DNA from: Lutibacter sp. Hel_I_33_5
Lineage (GTDB): Bacteria; Bacteroidota; Bacteroidia; Flavobacteriales; Flavobacteriaceae
DNA: 64,000 bases
Direction: 5' to 3'
Assembly (NCBI RefSeq): GCF_007827455.1
Contig: NZ_VISM01000001.1
Span: forward strand, 2,847,001 to 2,911,000
Shown: one piece after another, positions 34,028 to 57,089 of the stretch
Position numbering within the stretch: the first letter of the stretch is position 1
Layout: the number at the start of each line of letters is the position of its first letter
The notes under the pieces: generated by a model
Seen by the model: the letters and a program-made list of their open reading frames with translations, nothing else
Databases searched by the model: none
What the model was told of the DNA's origin: nothing
Program-made: the position numbers and the translations under genes

Positions 34028-34028
34028 A

Positions 34029-34160
34029 TGTTATCAAGAAAGGTGGAGGGATTAGACCCGTTGAAACCTTAGCAACCCTTTAGTAATAAAGAAGGTGCTA
34101 AATTCTACCCTGTGCTGAACTAGTTTCAGTATCTCATTAAAAGAGATTGGATAGATAACA
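34029..34160 (+). ncRNA. SAM-I (S-box) riboswitch
   Basis: The region has the S-box core: TTATCAAGAAAGGTGGAGGG, then ACCCGTTGAAACCTTAGCAACC, and further on AAGGTGCTAAATTCTACCC. P1 is closed by a perfect 7-bp pairing of TGTTATC (34029-34035) with GATAACA (34154-34160). S-box RNAs bind S-adenosylmethionine and turn methionine genes down when SAM is high. It sits 125 nt ahead of the O-acetylhomoserine sulfhydrylase gene, in the expected orientation. No GC-rich terminator with U-tract is seen between the aptamer and the ATG. A weak hairpin CATCAA/TTGATG (34222-34238) is present, so the mode of control is not clear. Confidence 0.92.
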
Positions 34161-34285
34161 AAAATGAATTTTCTATTTCTAGAACATTCAATTTTCTTAA
34201 TAACATTTTTCGAGTAAGGTTCATCAAAATAATTGATGCATTTGACTTTTGGTTTAATTAATTATTAACTCAAAAAACTAGAAAA

Positions 34286-35563
34286 ATGAGTACATTAAAA
34301 TTAGCAACAAACGCATTGCACGCAGGACATGACGTAACTGCCAATGCAGGAACTAGAGCAGTTCCTATTTATCAAACAACATCGTATGTTTTTAACAATT
34401 CAGAACATGCTGCAAATTTATTCTCTTTAAAAGAATTAGGATTTATTTACACACGTTTAAATAATCCAACAAATCAAATTTTACAAGAGCGATTAGCTGC
34501 TGTAGAAGGCGGAATTGGAGCTGTAGTTTTTGCTTCTGGAACATCTGCAATTGCTACAGGTTTATTAACGTTATTAAAATCTGGTGATCATATTGTGGCG
34601 TCAAGTAGTTTATACGGAGGAACGTATAATTTATTAAATGTAACGCTAAAAAGATTCGGAATTACAACTACGTTTGTAGATGCTTCTAATCCAGAAAATT
34701 TTGCATCAGCAGTACAAGATAATACAAGAGCATTTTTTGTAGAATCATTAGGAAATCCAAAATTAGATGTCTTAGATTTAGAAGCAATTGCTGTTCATTC
34801 TAAAGCAGCTGAAGTTCCTTTTATTGTTGATAATACAGTAGCTACACCTGCTTTATTAAATCCATTAAAACATGGAGCAAATATTGTAATTCATTCGTTA
34901 ACAAAATATATTGGAGGACAAGGAACTTCTATTGGAGGTGCAATTGTAGATGGAGGAACATTTAATTGGGCAAATGGTAAATTCCCAGAATTTACTGAGC
35001 CTTCTGAAGGATATCATGGATTAGTATATCATGAAGCATTAGGTGCTGCTGCATTTACTTTTAAATTAATTTTAGAAGGTTTACGTGATTTAGGTGGCGC
35101 ATTAAGTCCAACAAACGCGTTTAATATTATTCAAGGTTTAGAAACGTTGCCAGTTAGAATTAAACAGCATTCAGAAAATGCTTTAGCATTAGCAAAATGG
35201 TTAGAGCAACAAGATGAAGTTGCTTGGGTAAATTACCCAGGTTTAGAAAGTAGTAAATATAATTCTTTAGCTAAAAAGTATCTACCAAAAGGACAAAGCG
35301 GAATTGTAACATTTGGTGCTAAAAAAGGATTTGAGGCAGCAAAAAATATTGCAGACAATACTAAGGTATTCTCTTTGTTAGCAAATATTGGTGATACAAA
35401 ATCATTAATTATTCACCCAGCAAGTACAACACATCAACAATTAGATGAAGCGGCTCAAGCAAGCGCTGGTGTTTCTCAAGATTTAATAAGATTATCTGTT
35501 GGTATTGAAGATATAGAAGATTTAAAAACGGATTTAAAAGCAGCATTTGCTGAAATAAAATAA
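34286..35563 (+). CDS. O-acetylhomoserine sulfhydrylase (aminocarboxypropyltransferase)
   Basis: A 425-residue cytoplasmic PLP enzyme of the Cys/Met metabolism family that makes homocysteine from O-acetylhomoserine and sulfide. Features: Q-T-T-S-Y-V-F near 31, Y-T-R-L-N-N-P-T near 53, and the PLP lysine in H-S-L-T-K-Y-I-G-G (Lys207). The length (about 425, longer than cystathionine gamma-synthase at about 385) and the G-G-x-F-x-W insertion after the PLP lysine fit the Met17/MetY type. It is the first gene behind the SAM riboswitch, with the MetX-containing fusion gene 9 nt downstream, which supplies its substrate. Confidence 0.92.
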   Translation: MSTLKLATNALHAGHDVTANAGTRAVPIYQTTSYVFNNSEHAANLFSLKELGFIYTRLNNPTNQILQERLAAVEGGIGAVVFASGTSAIATGLLTLLKSGDHIVASSSLYGGTYNLLNVTLKRFGITTTFVDASNPENFASAVQDNTRAFFVESLGNPKLDVLDLEAIAVHSKAAEVPFIVDNTVATPALLNPLKHGANIVIHSLTKYIGGQGTSIGGAIVDGGTFNWANGKFPEFTEPSEGYHGLVYHEALGAAAFTFKLILEGLRDLGGALSPTNAFNIIQGLETLPVRIKQHSENALALAKWLEQQDEVAWVNYPGLESSKYNSLAKKYLPKGQSGIVTFGAKKGFEAAKNIADNTKVFSLLANIGDTKSLIIHPASTTHQQLDEAAQASAGVSQDLIRLSVGIEDIEDLKTDLKAAFAEIK

Positions 35564-50522: not shown

Positions 50523-51806
50523 CTAACTATTCAAAAAACTTTTCAACTCCTCATAAGTTCCAATCTTTAAAGCTTCTTTTTCTTTATCAATAACTGATTT
50601 TATTTGCTCAGGAATTTCAACTTCTACAGGTAGCGTTTCTGTAACAACATCTAAAAATTTTACTGGATGTGCCGTTTCTAAGAAAATTCCGAATTGCTCT
50701 TCTGTTATTTTATATTCTTTTAAACCTAAATACCCTACAGCTCCGTGAGGATCTGCAACATAATTAGCGTTTTTATAGATGTCTTTCATAGCAACTTTCG
50801 TTGCTTCATCCGTAAAAGAATAAGAAGAAAAAGCAGTTTTTAATGCTTCTAAATCGTTATTAAATAATTCTTGAATCCTGATAAAATTACTTGGATTTCC
50901 AACATCCATAGCATTAGAAATTGTTGCTTTAGATGGTTTTGGATTGTAAACGCCGTCTACTAAATAATTAGGAACGGTGTCATTAACATTGGTTGCAGCA
51001 ATAAATTGTTTTACTGGTAGTCCTAATTTTTGCGCCATTAAACCGGCACAAATATTTCCGAAATTTCCACTTGGTACAGAAAAAACAACTTCTTTATTCT
51101 TTTTATATACTTGTTTGTAAGCAAAGAAAAAATAAAACATTTGTGGTAGCCAACGTGCAATATTTATTGAATTTGCTGAAGTTAAGGTTCTAGGAATATC
51201 ACTATCTAAAAAAGCAGTTTTCACCATTTCTTGACAATCATCAAAAACGCCATCAACTTCTAACGCTTTAATATTTTGACCTAAAGTTGTTAATTGCTTT
51301 TCTTGAATATCACTCACTTTTCCGCTAGGATATAAAATAACTACATCTACACCTTTAACACCTAAAAATCCGTTTGCTACAGCACCTCCAGTGTCACCAG
51401 AAGTAGCAACCAAAACAGTAATCTGATTGTTGTTATTTCTATTAAAATAGCCTAAACAACGTGCCATAAATCGTGCACCAACATCTTTAAATGCCATGGT
51501 AGGACCATGAAATAATTCTAAAGTTCCGATGTTTTTTTCAATCTCAACTACAGGAAAATCAAAGTTGATCGTTTCTTTAATAATCTGTTGTAAAACATCT
51601 TTTGGAATTTCATCACCAACAAATTGTTTAATCGCTTCGTAAGCAATTTCTTCATTAGAATAATCACCAATAGTATCAATAAACTCCTTAGAGATTGGCG
51701 TGATGTTTTCTGGAAAATAAATACCTCTATCTGGCGCTAATCCTTTAACAACAGCTTCTTGAAAACTTACTTTTGGTGATTTATGATGTAAACTATAGTA
51801 GTTCAT
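50523..51806 (-). CDS. thrC: Threonine synthase
   Basis: The 427-residue PLP enzyme converts O-phosphohomoserine to threonine. The PLP lysine is Lys107 in H-G-P-T-M-A-F-K-D-V-G, with T-S-G-D-T-G-G-A-V-A near 133 and S-G-N-F-G-N near 247. It begins Y-S-L-H-H-K-S-P, as common for Bacteroidota ThrC. It is last in the thrA-thrB-thrC operon, 36 nt after thrB. Confidence 0.93.
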   Translation of the reverse strand: MNYYSLHHKSPKVSFQEAVVKGLAPDRGIYFPENITPISKEFIDTIGDYSNEEIAYEAIKQFVGDEIPKDVLQQIIKETINFDFPVVEIEKNIGTLELFHGPTMAFKDVGARFMARCLGYFNRNNNNQITVLVATSGDTGGAVANGFLGVKGVDVVILYPSGKVSDIQEKQLTTLGQNIKALEVDGVFDDCQEMVKTAFLDSDIPRTLTSANSINIARWLPQMFYFFFAYKQVYKKNKEVVFSVPSGNFGNICAGLMAQKLGLPVKQFIAATNVNDTVPNYLVDGVYNPKPSKATISNAMDVGNPSNFIRIQELFNNDLEALKTAFSSYSFTDEATKVAMKDIYKNANYVADPHGAVGYLGLKEYKITEEQFGIFLETAHPVKFLDVVTETLPVEVEIPEQIKSVIDKEKEALKIGTYEELKSFLNS

Positions 51807-51842: not shown

Positions 51843-52766
51843 CTAAGAAATTATTTTCACTCCTTCTGTACTAATTTTAGAAGTAAATAAATTATAATCT
51901 ATATTTTTATTTTGATATGCTTTGTCAATCGCATTGTATACTTTTTCAGCAATTTCATCACCTTTACAAAGTGCAAAAATTGTAGGTCCAGAACCTGATA
52001 TTCCAGCACCTAATGCTCCAGCTTTGATAGCTTCACTTTTCACTAAATCAAAATGTGGAATTAAATGTTTTCTTGCTGGCTCTACAATAACGTCGGTTAA
52101 TGAATTGGAAATTAAGTTATAATCATTGGAATGTAAACCGCTAATTAATCCACCAACATTTGCCCACTGAGTTACAGCATCCTTTAAAGGAACGTCTTTC
52201 GGTAAAACATCTCTTGCGTCTTTTGTTTTAACTTCTATTTGAGGATGAATTCCAACAACTCGTAATTCACTCGGAACTGGTAATTTAATGATGTCTAATG
52301 GATGATAACTTCTAATCAATACAAATCCTCCGAAAATTACTCCTGCAACATTATCAGCGATTTGTGTACCACAGGCAGCTTCTTCACCTAACATAGCAAA
52401 TTGAGTTAACTCTAATTGACTAAAAGGTTTGCCTAATAATTCGTTTACACCAAAAGCTGCTCCGGCAGCACTCGCTGCGCTACTACCCAATCCACTACCA
52501 GGAGAAAAACCTTTATGCATGGTCATGGTAATTCCAAAATCTACTGAATGTTTTTCTAGCATTGCTAAAGCAACAACGCCAGCAGCATTATTTTCTGCTT
52601 CGACAGGTAAATTAGCACCAGTTATTAAAGATATTTTTACACCTTTATCCTTGGTTTTAGTAAATGTCATTTCATCTCCTAACGCATCAATTGCTAGCCC
52701 TAAAGAGTCAAATCCACAGGAAACATTTGCAACAGTAGCAGGAGAAAATATTTTTAATTCATCCAT
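51843..52766 (-). CDS. thrB: Homoserine kinase
   Basis: The 307-residue GHMP kinase phosphorylates homoserine, the substrate step for threonine synthase. It has V-A-N-V-S-C-G-F-D near 12, the phosphate loop P-G-S-G-L-G-S-S-A-A near 89 and G-I-S-G-S-G-P-T near 253. It starts 3 nt after the thrA stop, so it is tightly coupled with it. Confidence 0.93.
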   Translation of the reverse strand: MDELKIFSPATVANVSCGFDSLGLAIDALGDEMTFTKTKDKGVKISLITGANLPVEAENNAAGVVALAMLEKHSVDFGITMTMHKGFSPGSGLGSSAASAAGAAFGVNELLGKPFSQLELTQFAMLGEEAACGTQIADNVAGVIFGGFVLIRSYHPLDIIKLPVPSELRVVGIHPQIEVKTKDARDVLPKDVPLKDAVTQWANVGGLISGLHSNDYNLISNSLTDVIVEPARKHLIPHFDLVKSEAIKAGALGAGISGSGPTIFALCKGDEIAEKVYNAIDKAYQNKNIDYNLFTSKISTEGVKIIS

Positions 52767-52769
52767 AAT

Positions 52770-55211
52770 TTAATTATTACCAATTCTAATTACATCTGCA
52801 AATACACCTGAAGCAGTAACTTCTGCACCAGCACCAGCACCTTTTATCTGTAAAGGATTTACAGGATATCTGTCTGTAAAAAACAATACAATATTATCAC
52901 TTCCTTCTAAATTATAAAATGGATGATCTGAAGGAATATGTTGTAAGCCAACATTAGCTTTTCCGTTTTCAAACTCGGCAACATATTTTAATCGACAATT
53001 TTTATCGTTTGCTTCCTTAAATATTTGCTGAAATTGATTTTCAAATTCAGTTAACGACGCGTAAAAATCGTCATTATTAGTAGTTTCTAAGCTTTTTTCT
53101 GGTAAAAATGCATTGTTCTTAATATCTGAAAGTTCTAAGTTATAAACACTTTCACGAGCAAGAATCAATATTTTTCTGGCAACATCAATTCCACTTAAGT
53201 CAATTTTAGGATCTGGTTCTGTAAATCCTTCTGCTTGAGCGGCAGCAACTACATCGTGAAATGTATTTGTATCATTAAAATTATTGAAAACATAATTTAA
53301 GGTTCCAGATAAAACAGCTTGAATTTTATGAACTCTATCGCCTGATGCAACTAAGTTTTTCAAGGTGTCAATTATCGGTAAACCAGCACCAACATTAGTT
53401 TCAAATAGGAAAGGAGCATTGTATTTAGTAGAAATACTCTTTAAATTTTTATAATTATCTAAATTAGAAGCACAAGCGATTTTATTACAAGTTACTACAG
53501 CAATGCTTTGTAGTAAATATTTCTCATATACTTCAGAAACTTTTTGATTTGCAGTATTATCTATAAAGACAGAATTACGGAAATTCAACGATTTTGTTCT
53601 ATCAAAAAAGGATTCTAACGTTGTTGGTTCGCCAGAATCTAATTGTTCTTTCCAGTTCGATAAATCGATTCCTTTTTCATTGAAAACCATTTTTCTAGAA
53701 TTAGAAATTCCAATAACACGAATCTTTAATTTTAAATTTTTCTTAAGGTAAGAAGCTTGTTTTTGAACTACTTCTAAAAAACGTTCGCCAACATTTCCAA
53801 CACCAGTAACAAAAAGGTTTAGTTGTTTTATTTTTTCTTCAAAAAACTGCTCATGCAAGGTGTTTAATGCTTTTTTTGCATCAGAACTATTAATTACAGC
53901 CGAAATGTTTTTTTCTGAGGCTCCTTGAGCAATCGCTCTTATATTTACGTTATTTCTACCTAAAGCGCTAAACATTTGACCACTTAAACCTTGATGATTT
54001 TTCATGTTGTCACCCACTAAAGCTATAATTGCTAAGTCACTTTCAATAGAAACTGGTTTTATCTTTTTACGCTGAATTTCATATTCAAAAACATCGTCTA
54101 ATAAATCTTTTGCTTTTGTAGCATCTTGATCGTAAATACCTATACAAATAGAATGTTCTGAAGAGGCTTGAGTGATAAAAACAATGTTAATATTGTGTAA
54201 AGAAAGATTTTCGAACATTCGTTTAGAAAAACCAGGTACACCAACCATTCCGCTACCTTCCAAAGTAATTAAGCTTATGTTTTCTATATGTGAAATTCCT
54301 TTTACAGCTCTGTTATTTTTTGAATCTTTAGAGATTAATGTTCCTTCGTTTTCAGGGTCAAATGTATTTTTAATTCTGATTGGAATTTGTTTTTGTAAAA
54401 CAGGTTGAATTGTTGGTGGATACAATACTTTTGCACCAAAGTGCGATAATTCCATTGCTTCTTGATATGAAATCTGAGTAATTGCAAATGCTTGTTTTAC
54501 AACTCTTGGATTTGCGGTGTACATTCCACTAACATCTGTCCAAATCTGTAATTCGTTAGCGTCTAAAGCTGAAGCATAAATAGCTGCAGAGTAATCTGAT
54601 CCTCCACGACCTAAAGTTGTTGTTTCGCCGTTTTTATTGCTAGAAATAAATCCGCCTAAAATGGTTACTTGTTTGTTATTTGAATTAAAAAAGTCTTCAA
54701 TATTTTTATTAGTTGTATTAAAATCAACATGTGCATCTACATATACATCATTAGTAGAAATCAATTCTCTACTATCTTTATGTGTTGCATCAAGCTCATT
54801 TTTTGCAGCTTCAGCAATAATATAAGAAGATAATTGCTCACCAAAACTAGCAATAGTTCCTAATGCTTTTGGAGATAATTCTTTTAATAAATGAACACCA
54901 TCATAAATAGAACTTAAACTTTCTAAAAGAGTATTAACTGTTTCTTTTACAGAGGTTTGATTTTCTTTATTGATTAAATCATCAATAACAGAAAAGTGTA
55001 ATTCTTTTAATTCTGAGACTAATTTTTTAGCTTCAGAAATGTTTGTTAAAGCAGCATCAGCAGCAGCTAATAATTTATCGGTAGTTTTTCCAAAAGCAGA
55101 AACGACTACTATTGTTTTTTCTTTATTAGAAACTTGTTTTACAATTTGTAAAACTTGCTTTATGTTTATTTGATTGGCTACAGATGATCCGCCAAATTTT
55201 AAAACTTTCAT
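52770..55211 (-). CDS. thrA: Bifunctional aspartate kinase / homoserine dehydrogenase
   Basis: The 813-residue cytoplasmic protein carries the first and third steps from aspartate to homoserine. The kinase part (about 1-290) has canonical K-F-G-G-S-S-V at 5-11 and T-T-L-G-R-G-G-S-D-Y near 197. Two ACT domains (about 310-455) fit feedback control by threonine. The dehydrogenase (about 465-813) has V-T-G-V-G-N-V-G near 466 and V-G-A-G-L-P-I-I-D near 610. It is first in the thr operon, 101 nt after a threonine-rich leader ORF. A diverged second copy is fused to MetX in the methionine operon, parallel to ThrA and MetL in enterobacteria. Confidence 0.94.
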   Translation of the reverse strand: MKVLKFGGSSVANQINIKQVLQIVKQVSNKEKTIVVVSAFGKTTDKLLAAADAALTNISEAKKLVSELKELHFSVIDDLINKENQTSVKETVNTLLESLSSIYDGVHLLKELSPKALGTIASFGEQLSSYIIAEAAKNELDATHKDSRELISTNDVYVDAHVDFNTTNKNIEDFFNSNNKQVTILGGFISSNKNGETTTLGRGGSDYSAAIYASALDANELQIWTDVSGMYTANPRVVKQAFAITQISYQEAMELSHFGAKVLYPPTIQPVLQKQIPIRIKNTFDPENEGTLISKDSKNNRAVKGISHIENISLITLEGSGMVGVPGFSKRMFENLSLHNINIVFITQASSEHSICIGIYDQDATKAKDLLDDVFEYEIQRKKIKPVSIESDLAIIALVGDNMKNHQGLSGQMFSALGRNNVNIRAIAQGASEKNISAVINSSDAKKALNTLHEQFFEEKIKQLNLFVTGVGNVGERFLEVVQKQASYLKKNLKLKIRVIGISNSRKMVFNEKGIDLSNWKEQLDSGEPTTLESFFDRTKSLNFRNSVFIDNTANQKVSEVYEKYLLQSIAVVTCNKIACASNLDNYKNLKSISTKYNAPFLFETNVGAGLPIIDTLKNLVASGDRVHKIQAVLSGTLNYVFNNFNDTNTFHDVVAAAQAEGFTEPDPKIDLSGIDVARKILILARESVYNLELSDIKNNAFLPEKSLETTNNDDFYASLTEFENQFQQIFKEANDKNCRLKYVAEFENGKANVGLQHIPSDHPFYNLEGSDNIVLFFTDRYPVNPLQIKGAGAGAEVTASGVFADVIRIGNN

Positions 55212-55312
55212 TGTATTTTTATAAGAAATTAATATTGTTTTTTTGTTTAGTTATCTGTTTTTGTTCTTTCAAAAATATAACCTAACCTAGCTGATATGTA
55301 TAGTTTAAACCC
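55212..55312 (-). promoter_or_regulatory. Candidate attenuator between leader peptide and thrA
   Basis: On the minus strand the leader stop codon lies in a small hairpin, ACCC-TTTA-GGGGT (about 55318-55309). Downstream, GGTTAGGTTATATTTTT (55287-55271) ends in a U-rich run. CTACCC near the leader stop can pair with GGTTAG with one mismatch, giving alternative folds. No strong single terminator is obvious by eye, so the mechanism is inferred from the leader peptide. Confidence 0.45.
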
Positions 55313-55411
55313 CTAAAGGGTAGTTGTTGTGTTTGTTGTAGATCCAAAAGAAATCGTTACAGCCGTTGTAGCTGTAGTAGAAGTAATTGTATTTCTTTTG
55401 TTAAAAATCAT
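55313..55411 (-). CDS. thrL: Threonine operon leader peptide (32 residues)
   Basis: Minus-strand ORF from ATG (55411-55409) to TAG (55315-55313). Of 32 residues, 13 are threonine and 3 isoleucine, including T-T-N-T-T-T-T at the end. It lies directly upstream of thrA in the same orientation, the arrangement of amino-acid-sensing attenuation leaders such as enterobacterial thrL: ribosome stalling at threonine codons when charged tRNA is scarce changes the fold of the RNA that follows. A -7 box (TACTTTTG, 55423-55416) ends four bases before the ATG, so the leader probably begins at the 5' end of the message. A second ATG, four bases upstream and out of frame, runs into TAA after four codons. Confidence 0.85.
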   Translation of the reverse strand: MIFNKRNTITSTTATTAVTISFGSTTNTTTTL

Positions 55412-55415
55412 GCAT

Positions 55416-55423
55416 CAAAAGTA
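55416..55423 (-). promoter_or_regulatory. -7 promoter element (TACTTTTG) of the thr operon
   Basis: Minus-strand TACTTTTG matches TAnnTTTG and is identical, including the 4-nt distance to ATG, to that of the cysteine desulfurase. The -33 region has no clear TTG. Confidence 0.55.
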
Positions 55424-55526
55424 TATCTATTTTTTTTTTGATAAAATGTTTTTGTTGTTTTTTTTGTGAAAACTGGTAATTAATATCAATCTAATAATGA
55501 AAACTCTAATAAATTCGAAATTTTAA

Positions 55527-57089
55527 TTATTTACCTCTTTTTTTTACTTTTTCTTTAATGATCTCTGCAATAGGTTTATTCTCTATCTTGCTCTCTAGCC
55601 AAGAAAGGATATCTAAATATAAAAAGGCTCTTTTCTCATAAGGATGATTTTCAAAAACCTTTAAACGAGTATGGATTTTTTTGAATTCCTTCTTTATTTC
55701 ATGTGGAAAAACATCACTTAAAGATCTAATAGAAACAATAAATTCTTTTTGCACCTCTTGCAAATTTTCCATCTTAAGTAAAAACTTAAACGTATCTTTA
55801 AATTGCCTTTCTAGATGATAATCTAATCCACATTCATAATGTGCAATTAAATTTAAAACCCTAGCAAAACATTGTAAATCCTCACCAACATAGAGTTTTT
55901 TAGCATTAATTATTTTTGATAAATACTCGATACATTTTTTATTTTCTCCCATACCAAAATAGAGGCAGGCAATTTTATAGTTCAAAATAGTGGTATGATG
56001 TTTATCTAATCGATGACTGTATTCTTTTATTTTTTGATTGATTTCATCAACTAAATATTCACCTTCTGCAAAAGTTCCATTTAAAAAATGTTTATGTAAC
56101 TGATTTGAATGATAATATTGAAAAATTAATAAATCTGTATTTCTGTTTTTAGGAATAAGGTCATTTTCTATTTCATATTCAAATTGTGTAAGTTCTTTAT
56201 CAAACTCTTCATTTTTTTGGATAAAAAATAAAGCCTCTAATAAATAATTTTTCCCTTTTAAATAGAAAACTGGATGTACCGTTATGTTTTTAGGATTGTC
56301 TTTAAAAAGATATACCCATTTATGTGCATATTTATAACTCTGTAGAAAATCTTGCGTTAATAAACTTCTCCATAAATGCGCTTTATATAGCCAAAGTTTT
56401 TCACGAAAACCAAAGTTTTTAAATTCGTATGAAGGCAATCTTGCATCAAAATATTCATTGACTTTCGTAAACTCAACATCATTTTTCACATATCCGGTTT
56501 TTAATAAAATACCGTAGAGTTGTAATGATAAATTTGATAATTTACTAGTGATGACATTTTGCTGACTAAGTTCTTTTGCTTGTATTGTAAGCTCGTCTGC
56601 TCTTGTATCAATACTTCGTGTAATGTATTGACTTTCAATAACTTTTTCAAGCTCAACAATTTCGTATGCAATGTTTTTTTCTTCATTATCCAGCGCCATA
56701 GTTTTGGCTTTGTCTAATAATTTTAAACTTTGTTTATATAATCCTTTTTGATATAAAACCGTGGCAAAATCTAATTGTTCTCTAATCTGAATTCGTATAT
56801 TTTTATGCGCCGGATTCATTCGTAAACTAATTAAAAGCTGCTTATATAAATGTGCTTTTAAGTTAGAAAGTTGCTGTTTACTAACAATTCCACTGCTAAT
56901 AATGCTCTTTTCATCATAGGTTTTTTGCTTTTCTAAAAATTTAAAAAGCGAAAAGAATTTTGCATCTACATTTCCCTCTAACCGCCCTACATAAAGGTTA
57001 AATTGCCTCTTTTCAGATTTTGATAAAGATTTTATCAAAATAAAAAGAGAATCCTTTTGTTGGTTGGCTGCTGTAACGAATTTATTCAT
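55527..57089 (-). CDS. Uncharacterised alpha-helical, TPR-like protein (520 residues)
   Basis: I do not recognise a named family. The protein has no signal peptide or membrane segment, is rich in Lys, Leu, Glu and aromatic residues, and looks almost entirely helical. Several stretches resemble tetratricopeptide-type helix pairs (for example Q-L-D-F-A-T-V-L-Y-Q-K-G-L-Y-K-Q-S near 106 and I-A-C-L-Y-F-G-M-G-E-N-K-K-C-I near 371). The N-terminus (S-K-S-E-K-R-Q-F) is highly charged. A cytoplasmic scaffold or protein-interaction role is possible. It is divergent from leuA and lies behind the thr leader region, with the thr promoter just downstream of its stop codon. No operon partner. Confidence 0.65.
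   Translation of the reverse strand: MNKFVTAANQQKDSLFILIKSLSKSEKRQFNLYVGRLEGNVDAKFFSLFKFLEKQKTYDEKSIISSGIVSKQQLSNLKAHLYKQLLISLRMNPAHKNIRIQIREQLDFATVLYQKGLYKQSLKLLDKAKTMALDNEEKNIAYEIVELEKVIESQYITRSIDTRADELTIQAKELSQQNVITSKLSNLSLQLYGILLKTGYVKNDVEFTKVNEYFDARLPSYEFKNFGFREKLWLYKAHLWRSLLTQDFLQSYKYAHKWVYLFKDNPKNITVHPVFYLKGKNYLLEALFFIQKNEEFDKELTQFEYEIENDLIPKNRNTDLLIFQYYHSNQLHKHFLNGTFAEGEYLVDEINQKIKEYSHRLDKHHTTILNYKIACLYFGMGENKKCIEYLSKIINAKKLYVGEDLQCFARVLNLIAHYECGLDYHLERQFKDTFKFLLKMENLQEVQKEFIVSIRSLSDVFPHEIKKEFKKIHTRLKVFENHPYEKRAFLYLDILSWLESKIENKPIAEIIKEKVKKRGK

Follow-up and report, generated by a model that had tools for sequence, protein, structure and literature searches.

The threonine operon of E. 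coli, with its leader peptide thrL and an intrinsic terminator, is the classical case of ribosome-mediated attenuation. Attenuators have reportedly also been listed in Bacteroidetes/Chlorobi, by Vitreschak in 2004 and by Lopatovskaya in 2010; literature searches on attenuation or leader peptides in Bacteroidetes, combined with threonine or amino-acid biosynthesis, returned no relevant paper, and an earlier listing of thr leaders is possible. Further related systems come from Actinobacteria, where ilvL of C. glutamicum is reported to start one nucleotide from the transcription start (PMC11857589), and where the leaderless leaders described in S. lividans comprise leuL1, metL, thrL before thrS, and others, some of them presented as having no U-tract terminator (PMC8079986). 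The same source describes leuA leader peptides without a typical terminator (PMC8079986), and mycobacterial polycysteine leaderless leader ORFs are named in the title of Canestrari 2020. Bacteroidota are reported to lack Shine–Dalgarno sequences (PMC6847099), and leaderless mRNAs are reported to account for 5.5% of 890 examined in F. psychrophilum (PMC9723704), while in a map of B. thetaiotaomicron about 3.7% of 5' UTRs are given as shorter than 10 nt (PMC7366714).

The window, i.e., the whole stretch of 64,000 nucleotides analysed, belongs to Lutibacter sp. Hel_I_33_5 and contains a thrABC locus on its minus strand. A Thr-rich leader ORF (55313..55411, minus) with an ATG start, 32 codons, and a TAG stop encodes MIFNKRNTITSTTATTAVTISFGSTTNTTTTL, in which 13 of the 32 codons specify Thr and 3 Ile, and its ATG lies four bases 3' of the −7 box TACTTTTG (55416..55423, minus), a perfect match to the Bacteroidota consensus TAnnTTTG. 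An earlier sequence-only reading had claimed a 32-codon ORF of this composition just upstream of thrA, with a −7 box ending four bases before the ATG; the first claim reads as stated, and the second is exact. The gene thrA (52770..55211, minus; bifunctional aspartate kinase/homoserine dehydrogenase I, 813 aa; NF006959, 1041.7 bits) begins 101 nt after the leader stop and is followed in the same orientation by thrB (51843..52766, minus; homoserine kinase; NF002288 / TIGR00191) and thrC (50523..51806, minus; threonine synthase; TIGR00260), these identities being assigned by NCBIfam. As part of a thrABC operon, thrA is the predicted target of regulation by the leader. The gene upstream of the leader (55530-57089, minus) shows a weak match to the BT2802 family ribose utilization protein (115.7 bits, cut-off 550). 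Elsewhere in the window, a SAM riboswitch (RF00162, 75.6 bits) is located at 34028-34161 (plus), upstream of ORFs at 34286 and 35573, the latter of which appears to join a homoserine O-acetyltransferase-like domain to aspartate kinase/homoserine dehydrogenase.

The leader frame ends in a small hairpin, hairpin 1 (ACCCTTTAGGGGT, 55309..55321, minus), whose 5' arm contains the last Thr codon and whose loop contains the stop codon; this codon, ACC, and the next C pair with GGGT. The conservation of this arrangement was followed in three samples. A search with thrA gave 70 loci, 66 of them with the thrA start, which together with the window make up 67 sequences, mostly from Tenacibaculum and Polaribacter (hereafter, the window's set). 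In a genus-level sample of Flavobacteriaceae, 119 of 120 genomes matched, the window's own included, and the 88 of the other 118 with a ThrA-type match form the sample, while the remaining genomes, which matched only other aspartokinases, were dropped; one locus (L057, identical with L133) is counted in both sets. A wider sample of the class provided 45 loci, including one from Flavobacteriaceae (L077). The hairpin-1 pattern ACCC..GGG was required in the counts of Thr content of the frame, promoter gaps, terminators, and codon third bases, and likewise in the analyses of fold energy, pairing probability, helix position, accessibility, and the freed arm.

Hairpin 1 occurs at the end of a Thr-rich frame in 65 of the 67 sequences of the window's set (it is missing in L062 and L063) and in 71 of the 88 genus-level loci, as compared with 0.015 expected per locus after shuffling. 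Among the 17 genus-level loci that fail the pattern, 15 lack a Thr-rich ORF end within the final 240 nt, and the other two (L209, L211) carry a variant hairpin beside such an end. Thr and Ile are the two commonest residues in the frame with hairpin 1. Within the stretch of 14 codons that ends at the hairpin, they amount to 37.9% and 20.0% in the 65 sequences of the window's set and to 31.9% and 17.4% in the 71 genus-level loci; one Thr in this stretch (7%) is imposed by the search pattern, and the remaining reading frames contain 0.06-0.21 Thr per 14 codons. Moreover, the Thr codons upstream of hairpin 1 drift at the third base (ACA 132, ACT 92, ACG 22, and ACC 20 in 62 loci). The Thr codon inside the hairpin is ACC, which is forced by the pattern, but a pattern-free alignment shows the same conserved block.

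Taken by itself, the Thr run in the window is only moderately unlikely, its Thr density being matched by 5 of 2000 dinucleotide shuffles of the 260-nt region that precedes thrA, and fewer than half of the loci of relatives exceed all 60 of their shuffles (28/65, 24/88, and 11/45 in the three groups). These figures, together with the 22 C versus 10 G of the leader ORF, are what could be expected if the run were a product of chance or composition, e.g., an AC-rich stretch without structure that is retained for another purpose such as Rho loading. However, the enrichment in Thr and Ile is specific to one frame with drifting third bases, and in-frame start codons keep a fixed spacing to the −7 box despite differing ORF lengths, which renders such an origin extremely improbable. 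Rather than Thr density, the joint conservation of frame, start position, and terminal hairpin appears to be decisive. Aligning the regions upstream of thrA in relatives, as the sequence-only reading had proposed, shows the Thr-rich ORF kept with the third bases of its Thr codons drifting; for its idea of a Thr/Ile leader peptide of thrABC, conservation of the frame, these drifting bases, and a start tied to the box give strong support.

The flavobacterial sigma-A box TAnnTTTG is reported to occupy positions −12 to −5 (PMC9723704), which, together with the gap of four bases, would make the A of the leader ATG (55411) the first transcribed base. A −7-like box lies close to the ORF start in 65 of the 67 sequences of the window's set, under a start choice that favoured ORFs with a −7 box no more than 8 nt away and permitted TTTA as the box end; the exceptions are L062, which contains a run of N, and L059, which has no box. 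The gap between box and start is 4 nt in 42 of these 65 sequences, the window included, 5 nt in 20, and 3, 7, and 8 nt once each, so that in 62 of them the predicted 5' end falls at the start codon (GTG in 38 of the 65 sequences, ATG in 27) or one base earlier. The other loci were surveyed in 76 that show the hairpin-1 pattern (the 71 of 88 genus-level loci and L072-L076 of the class sample), 66 of which have a TAnnTTTG box and thus a measurable gap when ATG and then the shortest gap are preferred as the start. The gap is 2-13 nt in 20 of them and 25-30 nt in 3. The tight rule of 4-5 nt belongs to Tenacibaculum, Polaribacter, and near kin, and leaderlessness appears to be a well-supported trait of this clade because 43 of the 66 gaps elsewhere are 14-23 nt long (5' UTR of about 10-19 nt). 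Within the Tenacibaculum/Polaribacter clade, promoter geometry predicts a leaderless leader with considerable confidence; the claim of a leaderless leader in a Bacteroidota, made from the window alone, would hold for the clade, but it is not supported for the phylum as a whole. In the Polaribacter loci (L008-L065), many leaders show, by eye, an internal ATG some 13 codons ahead of their stop, which is absent at that place in the window and could be an alternative start. The trp leader of the same genome starts 7 nt after its −7 box.

Downstream of hairpin 1, a spacer predicted to be unpaired (55283..55308, minus), with a conserved ACATAT block and a GGTTA-like sequence, precedes hairpin 2 (55249..55282, minus), which consists of a covarying outer stem of 6 bp and an inner stem, 6 bp long here, with no U-tract after it. 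The stop codon is positioned at +6, +12, or +15 from the Thr codon of hairpin 1 in 69 of 76 loci and, therefore, a terminating ribosome would cover this hairpin. Over 83 loci, made up of the window, six further loci of its set, L072-L076, and the 71 genus-level loci, the mean predicted probability of acting as a 5' partner is low from +9 to +23 after hairpin 1 (0.05-0.10, as compared with 0.21-0.25 in shuffled sequences) and reaches 0.58 from +27 to +38 (0.20 shuffled), followed by a 3'-partner probability of up to 0.57 from +42 to +50 (0.23 shuffled). The hairpin-2 helix starts 24-36 nt past hairpin 1 in all 62 loci of the window's set and in 60 of the 71 genus-level loci, 67 of which contain the helix. 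The median distances are 28-32 nt between both hairpins and 41 and 38 nt from hairpin 2 to the thrA ATG, the latter being fairly constant.

Covariation points to the same structure. In the Tenacibaculum alignment A5 (20 loci and the window, 19 distinct rows), compensatory double changes affect 6 of the 13 pairs of hairpin 2, with 24 double-change cells versus 8.0 in shuffled alignments and 98% of the cells paired, and in the Polaribacter-type alignment A4 (37 rows) they affect 6 of 9 pairs, with 27 cells versus 10.3 and 78% paired; in both cases, none of 500 shuffles, which do not keep relatedness, equalled the count of cells. These two alignments cover 58 of 62 references, all except L015, L040, L051, and L052. 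The seed alignment A2 (17 rows) shows double changes in 3 of 13 pairs over both hairpins and in 7 cells versus 1.4 shuffled. In A4 and A2, the number of pairs with double changes does not stand out from the shuffles, being reached by 83 of 500 and by 30, respectively, and neither does the count of pair types, reached by 275 of 500 in A5 and 109 of 500 in A4. The energy of folding is weak (mean z of −0.53 in the 83 loci and −1.68 in the window) and, thus, position and covariation carry the structural argument. RNAalifold on the plain alignment recovered merely three pairs of hairpin 1, with no covariation. A scan for long-range and pseudoknot covariation (61 sequences of one clade) was dominated by the split between Tenacibaculum and Polaribacter; among its top pairs only those of hairpin 2 made sense, and no pseudoknot stood out.

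Inside hairpin 2, the sequence TATTTTTG (55270-55277, minus) is a perfect match to TAnnTTTG. Its reading as a conserved promoter was rejected, since relatives alter the box yet keep the pairing; it may still fire in this species, where it could be an accidental secondary promoter of thrA. In two distant Bacteroidia loci (L099, L220), by eye, a thr leader hairpin with exchanged arms, ACGGGGTAACCCGT (ACGGG..CCCGT), is found at the stop codon.

A second copy of the element was sought in the genome and not found. The exact 13-mer of hairpin 1 is present in a single copy, a search for it with at most two mismatches gave 73 matches, below the 111 of a reversed control, and a covariance model built from 17 sequences of other genera, a seed (R1) picked because its alignment was clean, found nothing convincing elsewhere in the genome (best E of 1.98). 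Applied to 86 sources, the model returned 39 matches up to E 1, 37 of them at the expected place in our reading, while the remaining sources, including the window's own element, scored below the limit. As for described families, no Rfam 15 match to the element was obtained: positions 55100-55530 (431 bases, E up to 5) gave only chance hits to CrcZ, and a scan of the whole window at gathering thresholds left the thr element unmatched by any model, the Thr leader RF00506 included.

Terminators were sought with one detector for U-tract hairpins, whose fixed thresholds could miss weak ones. Between the leader end and thrA, this detector finds no U-tract terminator in any of the 65 loci of the window's set, and a single one, in L212, among the 71 genus-level loci with hairpin 1; the sequence after hairpin 2 is mostly mixed or A-rich. 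This accords with the remark of the sequence-only reading that a terminator/antiterminator fold is not obvious. An intrinsic terminator hidden in hairpin 2 was also considered and discarded, as no U-tract was found. In the same genome, four out of four positive controls gave terminators, namely the leader regions of hisG, pheA, ilvD, and trpE (L243, L244, L245, and L246, outside the window), with the leader peptides MTFIQNHHHHFHICSQAN, MLHNTWNRFYFYFYFFNKR, MYKQVLNIILVSVIVIPLQR, and MMKQINIWWWNSLNQ, respectively, and classical terminators. In the wider class, the detector finds 14 terminator-like matches in the 45 loci, i.e., nine loci of the Bacteroidia family f41 together with L083, L092, L093, L098, and L222. 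In f41, which gives us the impression of being Bacteroides-like, each of the nine thr leaders presents a Thr/Ile-rich ORF and a strong hairpin with a U-tract, and several of the ORF ends (GGAGGAAG) are, by eye, complementary to the 5' arm of the terminator. L083, which belongs to another family, has a hairpin-1-like leader end, CCCGG..CCGGG, at the stop and a strong terminator before thrA.

The classical design thus occurs in the class and, at operons for other amino acids, in this genome; at thr, the search did not find it in nearly all of the Flavobacteriaceae covered. Both the f41 leaders, with their complementary ORF ends, and the trp, his, phe, and ilv operons of this very genome would be in line with classical attenuation as at E. 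coli thr, with a terminator that is merely atypical, as would the terminators of L212 and L083 among loci with a hairpin-1-like end. However, the 65 loci of the window's set and 70 of the 71 genus-level loci contain no U-tract hairpin detected between leader and thrA, and mixed or A-rich sequence mostly follows hairpin 2, so we regard this account as improbable; classical terminator/antiterminator attenuation at thrABC is not supported.

The region was also folded for alternative structures, a check suggested in the sequence-only reading, and no clear mutually exclusive pairing emerged. With the ACCC arm of hairpin 1 masked, the predictions place the chief partner of the GGGG arm within the first 30 nt of thrA for 40 of the 83 loci, within the next 30 nt for 29, and at other sites for 14, i.e., there is no single consistent partner across these loci. 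Pairing into thrA would be one way of achieving translational attenuation, in which translation of the leader refolds the RNA and opens or closes initiation at thrA. Such control would fit with no terminator having been found and with the nearly constant distance of about 40 nt between hairpin 2 and the thrA ATG, and this constancy and the modelled pairing of the freed arm would keep translational control open. Precedents may be found in Actinobacteria, in which terminator-less leader peptides are described (PMC8079986), and in the translation attenuation of cysteine genes of M. smegmatis cited in PMC13236596. Nevertheless, the thrA start (−15 to +12) is predicted to be equally accessible (0.52, 0.52, and 0.53) with no ribosome, a stalled ribosome, and a ribosome at the stop, respectively, and sequestration of this start was rejected on account of these equal values. 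Moreover, the freed GGGG arm of the window pairs weakly (0.30), during starvation, pairing of this arm with thrA would act in the wrong direction, and the codons it pairs with would also be under constraint from the protein. Translational attenuation is, consequently, an unlikely alternative, albeit one with more than a marginal chance.

The reading that best explains the whole, and that we hold to be probable with clear room for doubt, is a ribosome-sensing leader that would tune thrABC to the supply of threonine (and isoleucine); that the leader acts as a Thr sensor is, on its own, very likely. From the conserved Thr/Ile-rich ORF, the start codon tied to the box, the two hairpins, and the fact that no terminator was detected, we infer leaderless translation, a response to threonine, and a direction of control as follows. 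According to its promoter, transcription would start at the A of the leader ATG, and the first ribosome would load on the bare 5' end and translate a peptide that ends in a Thr/Ile run just before hairpin 1. With ample Thr-tRNA, the ribosome would reach the stop in or just after hairpin 1 and depart, and the hairpin would reform. With scarce Thr-tRNA, the geometry suggests that it would stall on the run and hold the ACCC arm, leaving the GGGG arm free. In this manner, the position of the ribosome on the Thr run or at the stop would set hairpin 1 as open, half open, or reformed, and hairpin 2, at a median of 28-32 nt downstream, would be a second conserved signal.

Since no intrinsic terminator was found, this switch must act through something else. 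We give an even chance that its output is transcription elongation rather than translation, and our guess is that hairpin 1 could act as a pause hairpin and/or that Rho could act on the untranslated leader. RNA polymerase is known to undergo hairpin-stabilised pauses, and the conserved A/T-rich block located about 8-15 nt past hairpin 1 would suit such a pause. The excess of C over G in the leader could suit Rho; a stalled ribosome exposing RNA to Rho would lower expression, which is the wrong sign for simple Rho attenuation. More tentatively, and with somewhat less than even confidence, a terminator-less sensor of the Flavobacteriaceae threonine operon may be envisaged in which the last Thr codon is itself a hairpin arm, followed by a near-fixed unpaired spacer and a second hairpin, which would operate by programmed RNA-polymerase pausing or Rho and would have no 5' UTR in Tenacibaculum/Polaribacter (often with a GUG start).

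Whereas textbook leader-peptide control rests on a terminator, here a strongly conserved leader occurs without a detectable one. It is kept in most of the Flavobacteriaceae genera examined, while sister operons of the same genome retain their terminators; thus, a missing mechanism is exposed with internal controls. The surprising part is that no terminator was detected beside two conserved hairpins. Leaderlessness has precedents in Actinobacteria, and those in Corynebacterium and Streptomyces take away the novelty that the sequence-only reading had ascribed to leaderless loading as a different way of engaging the sensing ribosome. In a phylum reported to lack Shine–Dalgarno sequences, a leaderless start codon appears to have been fixed across a clade for sensing. 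If true, the proposal would define a new class of leader-peptide switch sharing its genome with four ordinary attenuators.

Judged by its sequence, the element would be a terminator-less, Thr/Ile-sensing variant of the leader peptide, i.e., of a known kind, and one without an Rfam match. It resembles the enterobacterial Thr leader (RF00506) in having a short Thr/Ile-rich ORF directly upstream of thrA in a thrABC operon, but it differs in its lack of an Rfam match or of a terminator found here, its predicted leaderless start, and its other RNA structure. With the leaderless leaders of Actinobacteria, several of which are described without a typical U-tract terminator (PMC8079986), it would share an ORF that begins on the transcription start or no more than one base from it, although phylum, promoter type, operon, and RNA structure are different. 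The LEU element of actinobacterial leuA (PMC1262725) likewise combines a leader peptide that contains a codon run with a conserved RNA structure; according to its description, however, it pairs its codon run with a Shine–Dalgarno box and a pseudoknot is possible, whereas here the covariation scan of one clade brought out no pseudoknot and such boxes are reported to be missing from the phylum (PMC6847099). In Flavobacterium psychrophilum, strong clues for leader peptide attenuation at amino-acid biosynthesis operons have been reported (PMC9723704); the main text of that study never mentions threonine, and its conserved elements precede pheA and hisG, operons that in the present genome have ordinary terminators. 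Finally, the thr leaders of the f41 Bacteroidia are alike in their Thr/Ile-rich ORF upstream of thrA, but they possess a classical terminator and an antiterminator-like complement.
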